A stretch of DNA of 44,697 nucleotides, taken from Candidatus Hydrothermarchaeota archaeon (GTDB lineage Archaea > Hydrothermarchaeota > Hydrothermarchaeia > Hydrothermarchaeales > BMS3B). Shown here piece by piece: positions 7,660 through 18,804 of the stretch. The notes under the pieces are model-generated. The model made no database searches and was not told where the DNA came from. It was given only the letters and a program-made list of their open reading frames with translations. Positions within the stretch are counted from its first letter, which is position 1; each line of letters opens with the position of its first letter. The stretch spans positions 1 to 44,697 of the forward strand of contig WANW01000076.1 in NCBI GenBank assembly GCA_015521615.1, in the 5' to 3' direction. The translations under genes and the position numbers were made by a program.

Positions 7660-9150
7660 CTATCCCTTTGCTGCCGCCACCATCGCAAGGAGGTTCTCAG
7701 GCTTGGCATTGCCCGGCACGACGCAGCCGGAGCTGAGCACAACGCCGCTGCGCAGCTCCGCGATTTCCCTGCTCGCCTCCGCCACCTCCTCCGGGGAGCC
7801 GTTCACCAGCAGCGAGGGCGAGACGTTGCCCCAGGCTACTGTCTTCTTCCTGAGCGCAGCCATGTCCATGCTCTCGTCAACGCTTATGGCGTCCACGCCC
7901 AGGGTGAGCATGTCCTCAAGCAGGGCAGAGACGTCGCCGCAGATGTGCAGCACCACCTTGGCTCCACGGCTCTTAATCTCGCGGATGAGCCTCTTCTCAT
8001 AGGGGTAGGCGAACTCGCGGTAGTGGGAGGGGGATATAACGCTGCTCGAGGCGCTGGGGTCTTCGGTGAATATAAGCTCCGCCCCCGCCTCTAGCATAGC
8101 CCTCGCGAGCTCCAAATTGTAGCGCAGCGCGTAGTCAAGAAGCTCGTGCACAAAGCGCTTATCCAGGTTGAGGTCGAGCAGGAAGCTCTCTAAGGGGTAA
8201 AGAAGCGTTGCGGCGAAGGTGAAGGGCATCCTGAGGTTTCCGGCTGCGAAGCCCTCGCTTTCCAGAAGGAGCTTAAGCGGCGCCATCTTCTCCTCCCCCA
8301 CCTCGGGCACCTCCAGCGAGGAGAGTTCCTCCTTGCTCGAGAGCGCCACGCTGAGCACGCGGGGCATACTCTTAGAGGGTATCAGAAGCTTTGCCCCGAA
8401 GTCGAGGGTAATGGTGATGCCCGCGTCGCCGCGCTTCGCGAGTTCCACGGCTTCTGCTACGCTAGCCTCGTCGTCGTTCTCGTTCGGCACGAGGACCATC
8501 ACAACCTCGAGGTGGATGCCCGCCCTGCGAATCCTCTCCGCAAGCGCGTGCAGGTGCTCCCTCGCGTAGGTAAAGCCGCACCTGCGGGAGTAGAACTCCG
8601 CGCTGCCCTTCACAGTGAGCGCCACCGCATCCAGGTAGGGCTCCAGCATTGAGAAGGCTTCCAGGGTAACGTAGCCGTTGGTGGCGAGCACATTCTTCAG
8701 CCCGCGCTCCCTCGCTGCCTTCATTACCTCAAGATAGAACTCCAGGTTGAGCGTCGGCTCCGAGTGGGTGTAAACTATGCCCCTGCACCTCGTGGCGATG
8801 GCGGCGCTCACTATCTGCTCTGGCGTCAGCCTCGATGTCCTGACCTCTTCCGGCTCGACCTGCGTGATGTTCCATGCGAGGCAGAACTCGCACGCCAGGT
8901 TGCAGCCCACGCCTCCAAGGTTCAAAAACTGGTGGTTCGGGTAGAAGAGGTAGAGCGGTGTCTTCTCTACGTAGTCCACTGAGAAGCTGGAGAGCTCACC
9001 GTAGTAGAGGTTGTAGAGCCTGCCCCCACGGTTCCCGCGAACCCTGCAGAAGCCGCGCTCGCCCTCGCCGATTGTGCATCTCCTGATGCACAGGTTGCAC
9101 CGCACCCTGCCCTCGCTCAGGCGCTCATAGCAACACGCTTCCCTAAGCAT
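7660..9150 (-). CDS. radical SAM domain fused to MtaA/uroporphyrinogen-decarboxylase-like methyltransferase domain
   Basis: N-terminal half: CX3CX2C at GCNLACEFC (C83, C87, C90), THSEPTLNLEF; C-terminal half: FTEDPSASSSVISPSHYREF, VVLHICGDVSALLEDM, GVDAISVDE, GNVSPSLLVNGSPEEV, SSGCVVPG. Confidence 0.88.
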   Translation of the reverse strand: MLREACCYERLSEGRVRCNLCIRRCTIGEGERGFCRVRGNRGGRLYNLYYGELSSFSVDYVEKTPLYLFYPNHQFLNLGGVGCNLACEFCLAWNITQVEPEEVRTSRLTPEQIVSAAIATRCRGIVYTHSEPTLNLEFYLEVMKAARERGLKNVLATNGYVTLEAFSMLEPYLDAVALTVKGSAEFYSRRCGFTYAREHLHALAERIRRAGIHLEVVMVLVPNENDDEASVAEAVELAKRGDAGITITLDFGAKLLIPSKSMPRVLSVALSSKEELSSLEVPEVGEEKMAPLKLLLESEGFAAGNLRMPFTFAATLLYPLESFLLDLNLDKRFVHELLDYALRYNLELARAMLEAGAELIFTEDPSASSSVISPSHYREFAYPYEKRLIREIKSRGAKVVLHICGDVSALLEDMLTLGVDAISVDESMDMAALRKKTVAWGNVSPSLLVNGSPEEVAEASREIAELRSGVVLSSGCVVPGNAKPENLLAMVAAAKG

Positions 9151-11447: not shown

Positions 11448-12326
11448 TCAGCTTACCACCGTCAGGAATATCTCCTCCAGGCTTGGGGCATGGCTCTCTA
11501 TATCCAGAATCTCGCCACCCCGGCGTACAACTTCGCGGGCAAGTGTGTTAACCTCCTCGACGCTGGAGCAAAGGGCCACTTTGCACCCATTTCTGCTCTC
11601 CACAGGCAGGTGGATGCCGGTCAGGTTGCCAAGCCTGAACCGGAGGGTGTACTTCACCCCGCCAAACCTTTGCTTGATCCCGTCCACTCTATCGAGAGCG
11701 ACCATTCTACCGTCCTTCAGTATCAGGATCCTGTCGCATATCTTCTCTGCCTGGTAGAGGTTGTGGGTGGTCAGAAGTATGGTTTTTTCACCCTTCAGAT
11801 TTCTGATATATTCCATTACATAGTTGGAGGTTATCGGATCTAAGCCGGAGGTGGGTTCATCGTAAACGAGCAGTTCCGGGTTGTTTATCAGAGAGCGCGC
11901 AATCGCAACCTTGCGCCTCATGCCTTTGGACATCTCTCCAAGCTTCCTGTTCAGGTGTTTAAGATTTAAGTCATTTAAGATAGCCTCAGCCCTTTCCCTT
12001 ACCTCCTGCCTTCCTATTCCATATATCTCCCCGAAAAAATCCAGGTACTCCATTGCTGTCATGTCCTCATACACGGGACTCTCCTCGGGCAGATACCCTA
12101 TGAGCTGCTTTGCCTTTTCACCCATGGTTTTGATGTTATAGCGCGAGATCCATATTTCACCTTCTGACGGCTCAATTAAACCCACAATCATTTTAATAAT
12201 GGAGGTTTTTCCAGCACCATTTGGGCCAACTATTCCAAATATTTCCCCCTTATCTATCCTGAAAGATATATTATCAACAGCCTGAAAATCGCCATACTTT
12301 TTTGATACGTTCTCAACTTTTAACAT
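11448..12326 (-). CDS. ABC transporter ATP-binding protein (ABC-2/NatA type)
   Basis: Walker A GPNGAGKTS, signature EMSKGMRRKVAIARSL, Walker B LLVYDEPTSGLD, TTHNLYQAEKICDRI. Confidence 0.93.
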   Translation of the reverse strand: MLKVENVSKKYGDFQAVDNISFRIDKGEIFGIVGPNGAGKTSIIKMIVGLIEPSEGEIWISRYNIKTMGEKAKQLIGYLPEESPVYEDMTAMEYLDFFGEIYGIGRQEVRERAEAILNDLNLKHLNRKLGEMSKGMRRKVAIARSLINNPELLVYDEPTSGLDPITSNYVMEYIRNLKGEKTILLTTHNLYQAEKICDRILILKDGRMVALDRVDGIKQRFGGVKYTLRFRLGNLTGIHLPVESRNGCKVALCSSVEEVNTLAREVVRRGGEILDIESHAPSLEEIFLTVVS

Positions 12327-12429
12327 AAAAATACCTCTCCCTTAGTTTTTTGAAACAGTTTATTTAAGCATTATTTTTCAGTAGTCGAAACAAAAAGGTT
12401 AAGAAATCCATTGGTAATCCTGATTAAAA

Positions 12430-14214
12430 ATGAATTTTAGAAATATCCTGGTCATAGCAAAATGGGAAATTAAACGTTCAAAGCCAAAATTTGGATTAAA
12501 TGTTACGATTCTTACTCTTTTACTCTTCATATCTTTTATAACTCTTTTTTTATTGTCTGTTTCGTCGCCATCAACTGGACAGGCTCTATATTCAGTTGGT
12601 ATATCTGGAGAAGACAGAATAATAAAGTCTGTCCTTGAATATGACGGAAGGTTCAGACTGGTGAACACAGAAGATGGCGGAAAGCTTCTTGAGAGAGGAG
12701 AACTGGATTTGCTTGTTGTCTCTGATGAAGGAACGAGGATAATTTATACAGACTCTAAAAGGTCGCTCGCAGCCCTGGATGCTCTCTCCCAAGCTTTAAG
12801 GCTGTACAAAACCCTGACTATTTTTGTTGTGGATGAAGAGCATATAAATTACGCCTTCCCACTGTGGATTCAGACCCATTACTTAAAGCGCAGTGAAGAG
12901 TTCCAGTTTTTCACCTCCGCTCAGCCTGAGAAGCAGGAAGTTTCAGCTGCGGTTGAATCTTTACCGGATAAAACCCTTAACCCAAAATCACTCCCCAGCT
13001 CTGAAGTTGTGGATCTTATTGAGGAGTATAGAAAGGCGGGGTTTGATGTTCGTGGAATAACCCAGGAAGAGGCAAGAATAACTCTCCCGGCTATTTTTTC
13101 TCCACCCCTGCCTTTTAAATCGGTCCTCCTGACCTTCCTGCTGGCTTTTCCGATATACCTTTTTTCACAATTTTATTCTTCGAGCATGCTGGAAGAGAGG
13201 GTCAACCGCCGTGCTGAGCTGCTCCTGACATCTCCTCTAAGCGCGGGAGACGTAATAATTGGCAAAACTCTTGCACACTTCCTGTTAACCCTGGTCAGTG
13301 TAATAGCAATAACGCTGATTATAAGAAGGAAGCTAGAGGTTGAGATAATTTTTGTTCTTATTCCGGTTGTTCTTTTCTTCCTGTCCCTCTCTTTCATGGC
13401 ATCCATACTGAGCAGGAGCTATAAAGAAAATTCTTTTATCGTAATTTTTGTTTCAGTAATATTCTTCTCTTTTCTATTCTTTCCAGCCATGTTCGTGAAT
13501 ATACATACAGTTAGCAACATATCCCCTGTTTCAATGATTGTGAACATTATGGATGGCGAAAAAGTAGAATTTTCAAAATTTATTTTTACAACTCTCCCTC
13601 TGTTTGCGATGGGCACAATTATATTTTTCATGGGTGCAATAATGTTCAGGGAGGAGGTGCTATTTTCCCAGAAGGGCATTTTTGACAAAATTTTTTATGG
13701 CATTAATCTTCTGTGGGAGATGGGTGGCGAAAGGTTAATTGCAGGCGTATTCTTTGGAATTCTGGCAGCGATGACGGCGTATATGCTTGAATTAATATTT
13801 ATAGTGGCCCTATTTCAGGTCCCGCTCCCGCTATCTCTATATCTGATGCTGACCCTCTCTGCCTTCTCGGAGGAGATTATCAAGATAGCCTTTGTAGCCG
13901 GTGTGGTGAGGTACTCGGTGCTGAGCGCTGGAAAAACATTACTTCTCGGCGCGTCATGCGGTGTGGGTTTCTTTATCGGTGAGAAGCTGATAGCTCTTGT
14001 AGCTCTTGCACAGATTTCCGGGTCCCTGTTTGGCATTTTCTTCAGTGAATATCTGCTAAATGCGTTGCTGCTTCACGTGGTGCTAACTTCCATCGCCGCC
14101 CTCGGGCTTGTGTGGAGCAGGGGAAGAATAAACTGGAGGTTCCTGTTCCTCTTAACACTTTCAGGCGTTGCTCACCTTCTTTACAACTACTCTTTGATTG
14201 GAGGGGGAGCATGA
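12430..14214 (+). CDS. ABC-2-type permease with C-terminal PrsW-like intramembrane protease domain
   Basis: ABC-2/NatB features (KWEIKRSKPKFGLN, LTSPLSAGDVIIGKTLAH); C-terminal SEEIIK (E481, E482, K485), GVGFFIGEK (E518), HVVLTSIAALG (H549), GVAHLLYNY (H582, N586). Confidence 0.82.
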   Translation: MNFRNILVIAKWEIKRSKPKFGLNVTILTLLLFISFITLFLLSVSSPSTGQALYSVGISGEDRIIKSVLEYDGRFRLVNTEDGGKLLERGELDLLVVSDEGTRIIYTDSKRSLAALDALSQALRLYKTLTIFVVDEEHINYAFPLWIQTHYLKRSEEFQFFTSAQPEKQEVSAAVESLPDKTLNPKSLPSSEVVDLIEEYRKAGFDVRGITQEEARITLPAIFSPPLPFKSVLLTFLLAFPIYLFSQFYSSSMLEERVNRRAELLLTSPLSAGDVIIGKTLAHFLLTLVSVIAITLIIRRKLEVEIIFVLIPVVLFFLSLSFMASILSRSYKENSFIVIFVSVIFFSFLFFPAMFVNIHTVSNISPVSMIVNIMDGEKVEFSKFIFTTLPLFAMGTIIFFMGAIMFREEVLFSQKGIFDKIFYGINLLWEMGGERLIAGVFFGILAAMTAYMLELIFIVALFQVPLPLSLYLMLTLSAFSEEIIKIAFVAGVVRYSVLSAGKTLLLGASCGVGFFIGEKLIALVALAQISGSLFGIFFSEYLLNALLLHVVLTSIAALGLVWSRGRINWRFLFLLTLSGVAHLLYNYSLIGGGA

Positions 14215-15287
14215 AGGAGCTAATTCTGGTCAAGAAGGAGTTCAGGAGTTTGATAAAGGAAAAGACGCTGATTTTAACGGTGCTGATCCAGCTTTTAATA
14301 GCTTCTTTTTCCGCCTTTCTTGTTGTGGGAATTATGAGTTATGTTTCCCCAGAGACTTTAAGTACCTATGGTCTTGAGAAGGTGAATCTGGCGGTTATAT
14401 CTGAGGACAGAGGGCTTGTGAATCTTCTCCAGCAGGAGGGGAAGTTCAATCTGAAATTTTACAGGGATTTCTCCAGAGCGCTTAACTCCTTTTATAAACA
14501 CGAGGTGGATGGGATACTGGTTGTGTCTACGGGGAAGGATCCGCGTTCAGACCCTGTTAAAATAGACTTATATCTGCCCAGAAATGATATCAGGGCCACG
14601 CTAATAGCCTCCTATCTCAAGGAGCCCCTTGAGAGATATGAGGAAAATCTCCGCAGGGAGAGGCTTAGCTACCTTCCCGCTGACATAAGGAAGGTGCTGG
14701 AGTATGAGCTCAATATCGGCAAAACCGGTGTTAAATCAAGTTATTTTGAATTTGTCTATGGTATACTTATTCCTCTGCTGATACTTGCTCCAGCCTTTAT
14801 TGCAGGTGGGTTGATTATTGACCTATTTACAGAGGAAATGGAGAAAAAGACTCTGGATATCCTCATTTCTTCACCTTTAAGCTTGCTTCAGGTTATAAAT
14901 GCCAAGATCATTGCATGCCTTGCAATAGTACCTGTGCAGTCCTTCCTGTGGATACGGCTGCTGGAGTTTAATGGCATTACCATTGAGCGGGAACCTCTAA
15001 TCCTCCTTTTAACTATCAGCATTGCTCTTATTTTGATTATCTCCGCCAGTCTTCTTGTCCTTGGCTACAGAAAAAGGGGTACAGCCCACTTCCTTTATTC
15101 GCTCCTGTTGATGAATCTCTTTCTTGCGGGCGTGCAATTCAGCACCTTCTCACCCCTGAATCTGGTTGCCAGTCTCTCCATGGGTGGGAGTTATGAGATT
15201 ACCCCTGTCCTCCTGTTCGTGCTGATGCCCCTGCTCCTGTATCAGGTTTTGATTAAAAGGGTAAGCAAATTCAAAAGCTGTGGATAA
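14211..15287 (+). CDS. ABC-2-type permease
   Basis: Start MKELILVKKEFRSLIKEKTLILTVL at 14211 (ATGA overlap with upstream permease, SD GGAGGGGGAGC); EMEKKTLDILISSPLSLLQVINAKI. Confidence 0.85.
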   Translation: MKELILVKKEFRSLIKEKTLILTVLIQLLIASFSAFLVVGIMSYVSPETLSTYGLEKVNLAVISEDRGLVNLLQQEGKFNLKFYRDFSRALNSFYKHEVDGILVVSTGKDPRSDPVKIDLYLPRNDIRATLIASYLKEPLERYEENLRRERLSYLPADIRKVLEYELNIGKTGVKSSYFEFVYGILIPLLILAPAFIAGGLIIDLFTEEMEKKTLDILISSPLSLLQVINAKIIACLAIVPVQSFLWIRLLEFNGITIEREPLILLLTISIALILIISASLLVLGYRKRGTAHFLYSLLLMNLFLAGVQFSTFSPLNLVASLSMGGSYEITPVLLFVLMPLLLYQVLIKRVSKFKSCG

Positions 15288-15289
15288 AT

Positions 15290-15982
15290 TCATGGATATT
15301 CATCGGGTGAATTCTTCAGCATGCCGTCCTCCATGTACAGCACCCTGTCGGCGAAGCTCTTCACCCTGGGGTCGTGGCTCGCTATTATGGCGCACCTTCC
15401 CTGCTCCACCCTCTCCCGAATCAGCTCCATCACCTCCCTGCCCTTCTTTGAGTCGAGATTTGCGGTGGGCTCGTCGGCAATGATTATCTCGGGCTTGGCT
15501 ACAACCGCCCTCGCCACAGCTACGCGCTGCTGCTCGCCCCCCGAGAGGTCCTCGGGCAGGTGGTGCATCCTCTCCGCCAGCCCGAAGGCTCTGAGAAGCT
15601 CCTCCGCCCTCGCGCGTGCCTCCTCCTCGCCCACCCCCTTTATTAAGAGGGGCACCATCACATTCTCCAGGGCGGTGAGTGCACTCAGGAGGTTAAAGTG
15701 CTGGAAGATGAAGCCTATCTTCTCCAGCCTCAGCCTGGCAAGCTCCCTCTGGCTCAATTTGGTTATCTCCACACCGTCAATATAAATCTCCCCCGAGGTG
15801 GGTTTCAGCAGACCGCTAATAAGCGTGAGCAGTGTTGTCTTTCCGGAGCCGCTCGGGCCCATGAGCAGCACTAGCTCGCCCCTGTCAATTGAGAAGGACA
15901 CGCCGCTCACAGCCCTCACCGCAGTTCTTCCCGAGCCGTACACCTTTGTCACGCCTCTCGCCTCTATCAGCATGCCGCCCAC
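15290..15982 (-). CDS. ABC transporter ATP-binding protein, LolD/MacB type
   Basis: Walker A GPSGSGKTT, LSGGEQQRVAVARA, IIIADEPTANLD, FIFQHFNLLSALTALENV. Confidence 0.95.
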   Translation of the reverse strand: MGGMLIEARGVTKVYGSGRTAVRAVSGVSFSIDRGELVLLMGPSGSGKTTLLTLISGLLKPTSGEIYIDGVEITKLSQRELARLRLEKIGFIFQHFNLLSALTALENVMVPLLIKGVGEEEARARAEELLRAFGLAERMHHLPEDLSGGEQQRVAVARAVVAKPEIIIADEPTANLDSKKGREVMELIRERVEQGRCAIIASHDPRVKSFADRVLYMEDGMLKNSPDEYP

Positions 15983-17113
15983 CTACGCCTGGAAAACCGT
16001 CGCCGGGTCCACCCTCTCAAGCTTCCTGATTGGCACCAGCGAGGCAAAGATGCTCATCGCTATGATGGCGACGAAGGATATCACCAGGTTGGAGGTGTTG
16101 ATTTCCACGTAGAACTCTGGAGCAACGGCAGGCACCAGTCTCGCCGCCGCCAGGGAGAGGGCAGCACCGCAGAGAAAACCAAGAATTCCGATGGTAAAGG
16201 CCTGCTCCATCACTATCCTGACCATAAACCCCTCACCGGCACCTATCGCTTTTAGAATTGCATACTCCTTTATCTTCTCCAGTGTTGCGGTGTACAGTGT
16301 GAGACCTATCACCGTAACACCTATGAAGAAGCCTATGAGCACCAGGGGCAGGAGGATAACGCTGAAGCTCTCGTCTATCACCTCCTTGTGGTTGTCTATG
16401 AACTCCTGCTTTGTGAGCACATCCGCCTTTATGCCACGCGCTCTCAGCCTGCTCTCTATGTTGGCGGCGATTTTCTCAGCAAAGAAGGGATTCTCCACCT
16501 CCACCATGTAGTAGTTCAGGAAGTCCCTGGCTCCGAAAATCTCAGCTGCATCCTCCTTTGTTACGAAGGCATAGGAATAGACCAGTACAAAGGTGTCCTT
16601 TGATATGCCCACCACCGTTAGCTCCACACCACCCGCTTTTATCGTATCGCCTATGTCAATGCCCTTCCTCATCGCAAACACCCTGTCCACCACCACTTGC
16701 CCCTTCCTCGGGATTTTCTTCCCCTTTATAACTTCCCAGGGGCCACCGACGCCACTGCTGGTGTCAAAGCCGATGATGAACACCGTCTCCTTGCTTTCTG
16801 AGATCTTGGAGACCTCAGCCATTACCGCTCTGCCTATGAACTCGTGCACCTCCTTGACGCCACCCACCTGCATTATCTCGGTGTCTAGGCCCCTGGGGAG
16901 GAGAGAGTAGGTGTGCCAGGTGTCGTGAATGCCCTCCTGCCCCACCCAGAGGTCCGCTCTGGTCTTCTTCAGATACATGGTGCTCTCAGTGAAAATGCCG
17001 TAGTAAACGCCTATCAGCGTCATTATCAGCATCGTGGCGAAGGCAACACCTCCAACGCTTATCACCAGCCTTCCCCTGTCGTGGAACAGGTTCTTTCTGG
17101 CTATTGAGACCAC
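15983..17113 (-). CDS. FtsX/MacB-type ABC transporter permease
   Basis: N-terminal TM, large extracytoplasmic loop, C-terminal 3 TM; KEYAILKAIGAGEGFMVRIV, AARLVPAV; abuts ATPase gene. Confidence 0.9.
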   Translation of the reverse strand: MVSIARKNLFHDRGRLVISVGGVAFATMLIMTLIGVYYGIFTESTMYLKKTRADLWVGQEGIHDTWHTYSLLPRGLDTEIMQVGGVKEVHEFIGRAVMAEVSKISESKETVFIIGFDTSSGVGGPWEVIKGKKIPRKGQVVVDRVFAMRKGIDIGDTIKAGGVELTVVGISKDTFVLVYSYAFVTKEDAAEIFGARDFLNYYMVEVENPFFAEKIAANIESRLRARGIKADVLTKQEFIDNHKEVIDESFSVILLPLVLIGFFIGVTVIGLTLYTATLEKIKEYAILKAIGAGEGFMVRIVMEQAFTIGILGFLCGAALSLAAARLVPAVAPEFYVEINTSNLVISFVAIIAMSIFASLVPIRKLERVDPATVFQA

Positions 17114-18541
17114 TCACCTCCTCCTCCAGAACCACGCGCCTGAGGCTATGAGGATTAGCAGCACCGCTGCAGCTGCTATTTTACTCAGCGGCACACCTCC
17201 GGCAGGGTGGTGCACCTCTATCTGCTTTTCCTCCTCAAACTCCCGACCGAACACGTCCCTGTAAGTAAGCGTGAGGCTTACGTTGTACCTGCTGCTGGCG
17301 CCCCTCTCCGTCACCTCGATTATCTCCTCATCTCCAGCCTCAAGGTCCCCTATGAAGCTCTCCGCCCTTCCATAGGGGGAGCTGGCGAGCGCCACCAGGT
17401 TCTTTGCCGGGGCGTTGCCGGTATTAGCAATGGAGATGAACACCTTCCCCGTCTCTGCCCTGAACAGGGTTGCAACCAGTGATACCTCCCCGGTCACCTC
17501 CACGCCAAAGGTGCGGTTCTCCCTTACTTCCATGCCCGAAGAGTCGTACCTCAGGCTCACGTAGAGGGGGTAGTAACCCGGCTCTGCATCCTCATTCACC
17601 AGCACGCTGAAGGAGATTTTACTGCTCTCTCCAGCACCTATTGAGCTGAGGAACTCTGAGCTGGACGAAGCCGGAAACAGCACCTCGCTGCTCCAGCTCA
17701 GCAGCACATTTCTGAGCTCCTCATCGCCTTCGTTGGACAGGCTGAAAAGGAGTCTCCCGGCCCCGCCGGTTTTCAGCGCCTCGGGCTTGAGGGTTACCCT
17801 TAGGTAGTCCTCCTCCCGGCTCCTGACCTCAAGACCCAGGGTGTGGTTCTCGCTCCTCAAGTTGCCTGTTGAGTCGTAGTAGGTGACCGAAAACTTCAAA
17901 ATCGCCGTTCCGGTGCTTCCGGCTCGCACGCTTAGGGGTACCTTCAGCGTGGCTCCAGAGCCGAGGCGGCGTATAAAGATGCTGGAGGAGCTACCGACGG
18001 GCACAACACCCTCACCGCTCCAAGATATATGCAGGTCGCGAAGCTCACCGCCGGGGTTGTGAATTTTAAGCGTAACATTCTCTGTTTTCTCAGCCTCAAT
18101 TTCAGCAGTCGAAAGGCTGAGCTGCAGGAAGCTTTCTTCAGTAACCTCGAGGGGGATGTCATACCTTATGCTGCTGGTTTTGCCTATGTAGTTGGCACTC
18201 AGAAAGATTTTAACCACATAGAACCCCGGGACAGTGCCCTCGGGCACTCTGAACCTGAGCACCACCTGCTTCACATCCCCTGGATACAGGGCACCAAGCC
18301 TTGTGCTAAAGCCATAAACTTCGAGCGGAGCATCAGCTTCCACGCGAGTCAGGTAAAGATAGCTTATTGTCTCAGTGCCTGGATTTGTGATTTTTAGCTG
18401 TATATAACCCGAGGTTCCTGGCTTTATAACCTCCGGCAGGGTTGAATATTCCACATAAATCTTCTCTGACAGCTCTGCATTTACAGTAAAGCTGAGGAGA
18501 ATTACGGCGACGATTGTCCAGACTATTTTTAAAGATGGCAT
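17114..18541 (-). CDS. secreted, C-terminally anchored protein with repeated NEW3/CARDB-like beta-sandwich domains (COG1361-like)
   Basis: Signal peptide; repeats such as IKPGTSGYIQLKITNPGTETI, EKTENVTLKIHNPGGELRDL, GGAGRLLFSLSNEGDEELRNV; C-terminal TM plus RRR; start set at MPSLKIVW. Confidence 0.82.
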   Translation of the reverse strand: MPSLKIVWTIVAVILLSFTVNAELSEKIYVEYSTLPEVIKPGTSGYIQLKITNPGTETISYLYLTRVEADAPLEVYGFSTRLGALYPGDVKQVVLRFRVPEGTVPGFYVVKIFLSANYIGKTSSIRYDIPLEVTEESFLQLSLSTAEIEAEKTENVTLKIHNPGGELRDLHISWSGEGVVPVGSSSSIFIRRLGSGATLKVPLSVRAGSTGTAILKFSVTYYDSTGNLRSENHTLGLEVRSREEDYLRVTLKPEALKTGGAGRLLFSLSNEGDEELRNVLLSWSSEVLFPASSSSEFLSSIGAGESSKISFSVLVNEDAEPGYYPLYVSLRYDSSGMEVRENRTFGVEVTGEVSLVATLFRAETGKVFISIANTGNAPAKNLVALASSPYGRAESFIGDLEAGDEEIIEVTERGASSRYNVSLTLTYRDVFGREFEEEKQIEVHHPAGGVPLSKIAAAAVLLILIASGAWFWRRR

Positions 18542-18804
18542 ACATCTTCCCCTATATTTCTCATAACGCACAACTTACCTCGAGATTAACTTAAATTGAT
18601 TCTAACTAATAATCTTTATTATTTACACAATGTAAAGTGCGCATTTTTGCTAAATTTAAAAATAAAAATTGGAAATATCTCCATTTCTGAGAATTTCATC
18701 TGCCCTGAAGGCATCCATTATTACATCTGTATAAAAAAACTGTACAAAATTTCCATTTTGAAATGCGAAAAGAATATATGCATACATTTTGATAAAATAT
18801 TTAG

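Follow-up and report, generated by a model that had tools for sequence, protein, structure and literature searches.

Intramembrane proteases and ABC exporters

PrsW proteins (PF13367, MEROPS M82), among them PrsW of B. subtilis, carry the motifs EExxK, FxxxE, a histidine and HxxxN/D in successive transmembrane (TM) helices, and these are shared by the protein described here. In the published active site EExxK lies in TM3, the histidine in TM5 and HxxxD, as known from the B. subtilis protein, in TM6 (PMC4602095); PrsW, CPBP and APH-1 have been placed in one superfamily (PMC4602095, PMC6588880). Described members are either standalone proteins with about eight TM helices or they are fused to toxins, to signalling domains or to another PrsW-like domain (PMC3482391). 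PrsW is best understood in Bacillus alone, and little is known of what archaeal membrane proteases cleave in nature (PMC9263693).

A protease and an exporter united in one polypeptide are known from the PCAT or C39 transporters, in which cleavage is coupled to export (PMC10885120). Their protease is, however, a soluble N-terminal cysteine peptidase, and the chain contains an ATPase domain of its own. In the TMcin system (TmcP and TmcBC) an intramembrane protease is followed by an ABC exporter which is proposed to extract the membrane peptide (PMC13252029), but the proteins are separate, the protease is an S2P metalloprotease and the precursor gene is linked. The bacterial NCBIfam family NF041647, as described by its title and match pattern, combines an N-terminal ABC-2 permease and a C-terminal domain of the CAAX-protease superfamily, of the CPBP type, in one chain. 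Exporters of the NatAB/DrrAB type likewise consist of an ATPase and one or more ABC-2 permeases, yet without a protease domain. In a survey of archaeal gene fusions ABC-2 proteins were prominent among the composites and a protease is unmentioned (PMC11237513).

In the locus described here a five-helix PrsW-type core, putatively an intramembrane glutamic protease, is joined to an ABC-2 permease. The protein does not match NF041647 (cut-off 435 bits), which is reached in 0 of 60 genomes; fused paralogs score about 54–93 bits. No description of a fusion of ABC-2 and PrsW, and no activity, substrate or complex for one, was found in the open-access literature, most subscription journals lying outside its coverage, and the architecture is provisionally taken to be undescribed, as it appears to be.

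The fused gene and its cassette

The stretch of DNA analysed, hereafter the window (44,697 nucleotides), is contig C76 of an archaeal genome assembly of 1.80 Mb. The fused gene (12430–14214, plus strand) begins with ATG, is free of internal stops and encodes 594 amino acids. The N-terminal ABC-2 permease that the first-pass annotation had proposed is confirmed by a match to Pfam ABC2_membrane_3 (PF12698) over residues 25–412 (E 5.2e-11). This permease half (residues 1–412, 12430–13665, plus strand) contains a large extracytoplasmic segment, roughly residues 46–228, and the residues E263, L265, P269, K279 and E333 are conserved across fused homologs. In one of these, L006 of genome G021, a long low-complexity stretch rich in lysine and glutamate lies inside the extracytoplasmic segment. 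The C-terminal domain (residues 435–594, 13732–14211, plus strand) has five predicted TM helices and is supported by hhalign, an AF2 model and Foldseek. That the gene combines a permease with a C-terminal domain is near certain. Both halves are under purifying selection in comparison with the 84–88 % identical orthologs of genomes G001 and G002, dN/dS being about 0.10 for the permease half and 0.13–0.18 for the C-terminal domain. Between the very close pair G001 and G002 the C-terminal value is 0.43, resting on few synonymous changes.

The divergent partner of the fused gene (11448–12326, minus strand) encodes a DrrA-like ABC ATPase (PF00005, E 7.8e-33) with a DrrA1-3_C domain (E 3.8e-6), which scores 256.7 bits against TIGR01188 (drrA), under the cut-off of that model. 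The intergenic region between the two genes (12327–12429), as read from the sequence, measures 103 bp and leaves space for no gene longer than about 30 codons. Downstream a second ABC-2 permease (14211–15287, plus strand; PF12698, E 2.9e-17) overlaps the fused gene by 4 nt. The arrangement of divergent ATPase and overlapping permease is as it had been described, and the permease domain, the ATPase and a partner permease of an ABC-2 exporter are thus encoded alongside each other. In PADLOC neither permease is a defence match and the ATPase matches generically.

In distant archaea the cassette recurs: the ATPase gene again diverges from that of the fused permease, and the gene of a second permease overlaps or abuts the latter. 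The divergent position of the ATPase is kept in most of the distant cassettes inspected; exceptional cassettes are found in G130, with no ATPase adjacent, and in G202, with none recognised in the ORF list. The flanking genes differ from cassette to cassette. In a paralogous system the ATPase, the fused permease and the second permease all point in the same direction.

Assignment of the C-terminal domain to PrsW

The window protein gives no match to PF13367, neither at full length nor as an isolated domain, and its C-terminal 164 residues scanned alone matched nothing in Pfam or NCBIfam. Taken by itself this would speak for a fortuitous resemblance, in which the C-terminus merely adds helices to the permease; such an explanation is extremely improbable and is refuted in the main by the profile-profile match, the Pfam matches of orthologs, the invariant motifs and the structural neighbours. 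Aligned by hhalign with 25–30 standalone archaeal PrsW proteins, domains of the window type reach a probability of 95–97 % over about 145 columns (E 3e-8 to 4e-11). All four motif blocks are in register, with E454, E481/E482, E518, H549, H582 and N586 among the aligned positions. Reversed sequences stayed below or around 1 %. Five standalone PrsW rows of doubtful reading frame proved on checking to be genuine PrsW, and the result is unchanged without them. The relation to PrsW claimed at the first pass is therefore borne out.

A second line of evidence comes from the homologs. L004 (genome G004, contig C73) is an ortholog 53 % identical to the window protein and is encoded in the same cassette. 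Its domain, scanned alone, reaches 27.7 bits against PF13367, for which the gathering threshold is 23.5. Scanned as a whole protein L004 has no PF13367 match, so the signal lies near the threshold. The gathering threshold is also exceeded by the fused homologs L009, L015 and L021, the last being a paralog from the window's own genome, and at E ≤ 1 a PF13367 match is obtained for 9 of 20 fused domains. Membership in the CPBP/Rce1 family (PF02517) was considered as well and rejected: the motif is EExxK and not EExxxR, and hhalign against archaeal CPBP gives about 1 % or less.

By profile-profile alignment the C-terminal domain is shown to belong to the PrsW family, with the predicted active-site residues retained. 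Its five helices compare with the about eight that are typical of most, though not all, PrsW proteins. The published four-helix catalytic core fits within them, and the order of the motifs corresponds to the published active-site pattern (PMC4602095).

Motifs, topology and predicted structure

The four blocks SEEIIK, GVGFFIGEK, HVVLTSIAALG and HLLYN lie where the first-pass annotation had placed them, each in a predicted helix of its own in the domain model. Their conservation was followed in 22 fused proteins of the same architecture, most of them 20–30 % identical to the window protein. In the first motif, EEIIK (13870–13884, plus strand), E481, E482 and K485 are invariant in 22/22, as are F514 and E518 in the second, GVGFFIGEK (13960–13986, plus strand). 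H549 of the third motif, HVVLT (14074–14088, plus strand), is present in 21 of the 22, and T553 is a threonine in only part of the rows; of the HxxxT signature that had been proposed, the histidine stands and the threonine falls. In the fourth motif, HLLYN (14173–14187, plus strand), H582 is found in 22/22 and N586 in 21/22, the remaining protein (L043) having an aspartate. Position 454 is E or Q throughout. A separately built domain alignment of 20 rows yielded the same set of invariant residues. Since they are invariant or nearly so across 22 homologs of the same architecture, the blocks are not due to chance.

The one exception at H549 is L004, where a glutamine replaces the histidine and the remaining motif residues are intact. 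Judged from the sequence, either the histidine may be dispensable or the L004 copy may be inactive, and the protein represents a natural test of whether this histidine is essential.

The loops after TM2 (RYSVLSAGK) and TM4 (WSRGRINWR) carry positive charges and should be cytoplasmic, while those after TM1 and TM3, which carry none, should be outside. With this topology, drawn from the positive-inside rule, all motifs sit inside helices.

The AF2 model of the domain (pLDDT 88, pTM 0.83) consists of five long helices. In a Foldseek comparison with the PDB, three of its four best neighbours are chains of APH-1 and the fourth belongs to the BOS complex, each with a probability of 0.99 and weak E-values of 0.06–0.11 (best 0.058). 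The BOS chain is presumably TMEM147, an APH-1-like protein. APH-1 is the non-catalytic scaffold of gamma-secretase, and the domain could likewise be a non-proteolytic module of the PrsW/APH-1 fold which stabilises the permease as a scaffold or by binding lipids or peptides. The loss of H549 in L004 and the count of five helices instead of the usual eight (PMC3482391) would agree with such a role, but against it stand the predicted catalytic acids and H582, which remain invariant over 22 mostly distant proteins, as would not be expected of a pure scaffold; we consider this possibility unlikely.

A search of the viral structure library gave no match for the model. Sequence searches of the PDB found nothing with the domain profile and only NosY, weakly, with the full profile. 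The full-length AF2 model, built from seven sequences, was poor (pLDDT 59) and was kept out of the conclusions; its Foldseek search was uninformative.

Distribution and history

The fusion of ABC-2 and PrsW is widespread: of 299 archaeal genomes at least 21, belonging to 10 family-level groups, have it. Counted were matches that reach the end of the domain within an open frame longer than 500 codons. Unfused relatives of the permeases, or standalone PrsW, are present in many of the other genomes. A tblastn search of plasmids with the fused homolog L022 gave no match.

The window's own genome encodes a second fused permease–PrsW protein, L021, together with a second permease (contig C20, 13953–16744). 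L021 belongs to a separate subfamily, its PrsW domain exceeds the Pfam cut-off, and it is the sole PF13367 match in this genome. As far as detected, PrsW therefore exists in this organism only in fused form.

In the PrsW-domain tree the 22 fused domains all fall to the same side of one branch (99/97), which fits a single origin of the domain. In the tree of the permease halves the fused members form two groups which do not fall on one side of any branch. The history may thus have been a single fusion, after which the domain was lost in some members, or two separate fusions. Compared by eye, the trees of the fused and of the second permease have a matching branch order within the window's subfamily, and this supports the view that both would be inherited in parallel as an obligate pair.

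Proposed function

The reading preferred here, to which we give about an even chance, is that the three genes encode a heterodimeric ABC-2 exporter into which a glutamic intramembrane protease of the PrsW type is built, and that this machine cleaves a membrane-held peptide and expels a fragment. Two different permeases would pair over a dimer of the ATPase. Inside the membrane E481/E482, with K485, E518, H549 and H582/N586 would activate water, and a membrane-spanning or membrane-anchored polypeptide may then be cut next to the channel. The ATP-driven movement of the permeases would pull the hydrophobic fragment from the membrane and expel it. The presumed proteolysis and its coupling to export fit the conserved cassette, and the covalent linkage of the two halves together with its long conservation suggests that they cooperate. 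Unfused versions of a related exporter pair exist, so export as such does not require the protease.

Candidate substrates are signal-peptide remnants, lipoproteins and small membrane peptides. Neither a precursor or substrate gene nor a modification gene was recognised beside the inspected cassettes among ORFs of at least 100 amino acids, and the substrates are thus more likely encoded elsewhere than in the form of a dedicated, linked bacteriocin. Leader-peptide processing, offered at first as one role, likewise lacks a recognisable co-encoded precursor. This also weighs, as do the unconserved neighbours, against an exporter devoted to maturing a single ribosomal peptide, which would resemble a PCAT with an intramembrane protease in the place of C39. 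PCATs and systems of the SKF and TMcin type do unite a protease with an ABC exporter, but such a specialised function seems quite improbable. A C39 peptidase domain is absent from all three proteins of the cassette.

The cleavage of an anti-sigma-like protein, the other substrate first considered, is unlikely as worded: archaea are not known to have bacterial sigma or anti-sigma factors. A broader signalling device might still be imagined, in which the PrsW domain cuts a membrane-anchored regulator in answer to an envelope stress or a substrate sensed by the permease pair, so that transport would report flux instead of disposing of a cleavage product. The best-studied PrsW, that of B. subtilis, is indeed a site-1 protease that cuts the anti-sigma factor RsiW, and other PrsW domains are fused to PilZ, cyclic-nucleotide-binding and FHA domains (PMC3482391). 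Apart from the missing sigma factors, however, in none of the distant genomes inspected does the cassette have a linked regulator gene, and a signalling function of this kind is regarded as doubtful.

For the exporter with a built-in protease, the presence of the joint protein in many archaea suggests, short of proof, that a single machine cuts a membrane peptide and exports it. The wider proposal of an ancient and widespread class of archaeal exporters, previously undescribed, in which one permease–protease chain forms a cut-and-expel machine for membrane peptides, is made more tentatively and falls somewhat short of an even chance. In this fusion the C39 transporters would have their intramembrane counterpart. 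Because the protease is covalently linked to a transporter, the search for its substrate becomes narrower, as this should be something that the transporter handles, and the coupling of membrane proteolysis to ATP-driven extraction would become testable within one complex.

Neighbouring genes in the window

Convergent to the cassette, genes on the minus strand (15290–18571) encode a LolD-like ATPase, an FtsX/MacB-type permease and a NEW3-domain protein. In the G001 and G004 regions used for comparison, these genes did not align between the corresponding flanks. On the other side an ORF on the minus strand (7660–9150) combines the N-terminus of a radical SAM protein with a uroporphyrinogen decarboxylase (URO-D) of which the C-terminal three quarters are present, from profile position 80 onward. 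The radical SAM protein of the congeneric G001 has 341 amino acids and lacks the decarboxylase part, and the similarity to G001 breaks at about 8417; from its sequence the ORF appears to mark the junction of a deletion or to be a chimera of the assembly.
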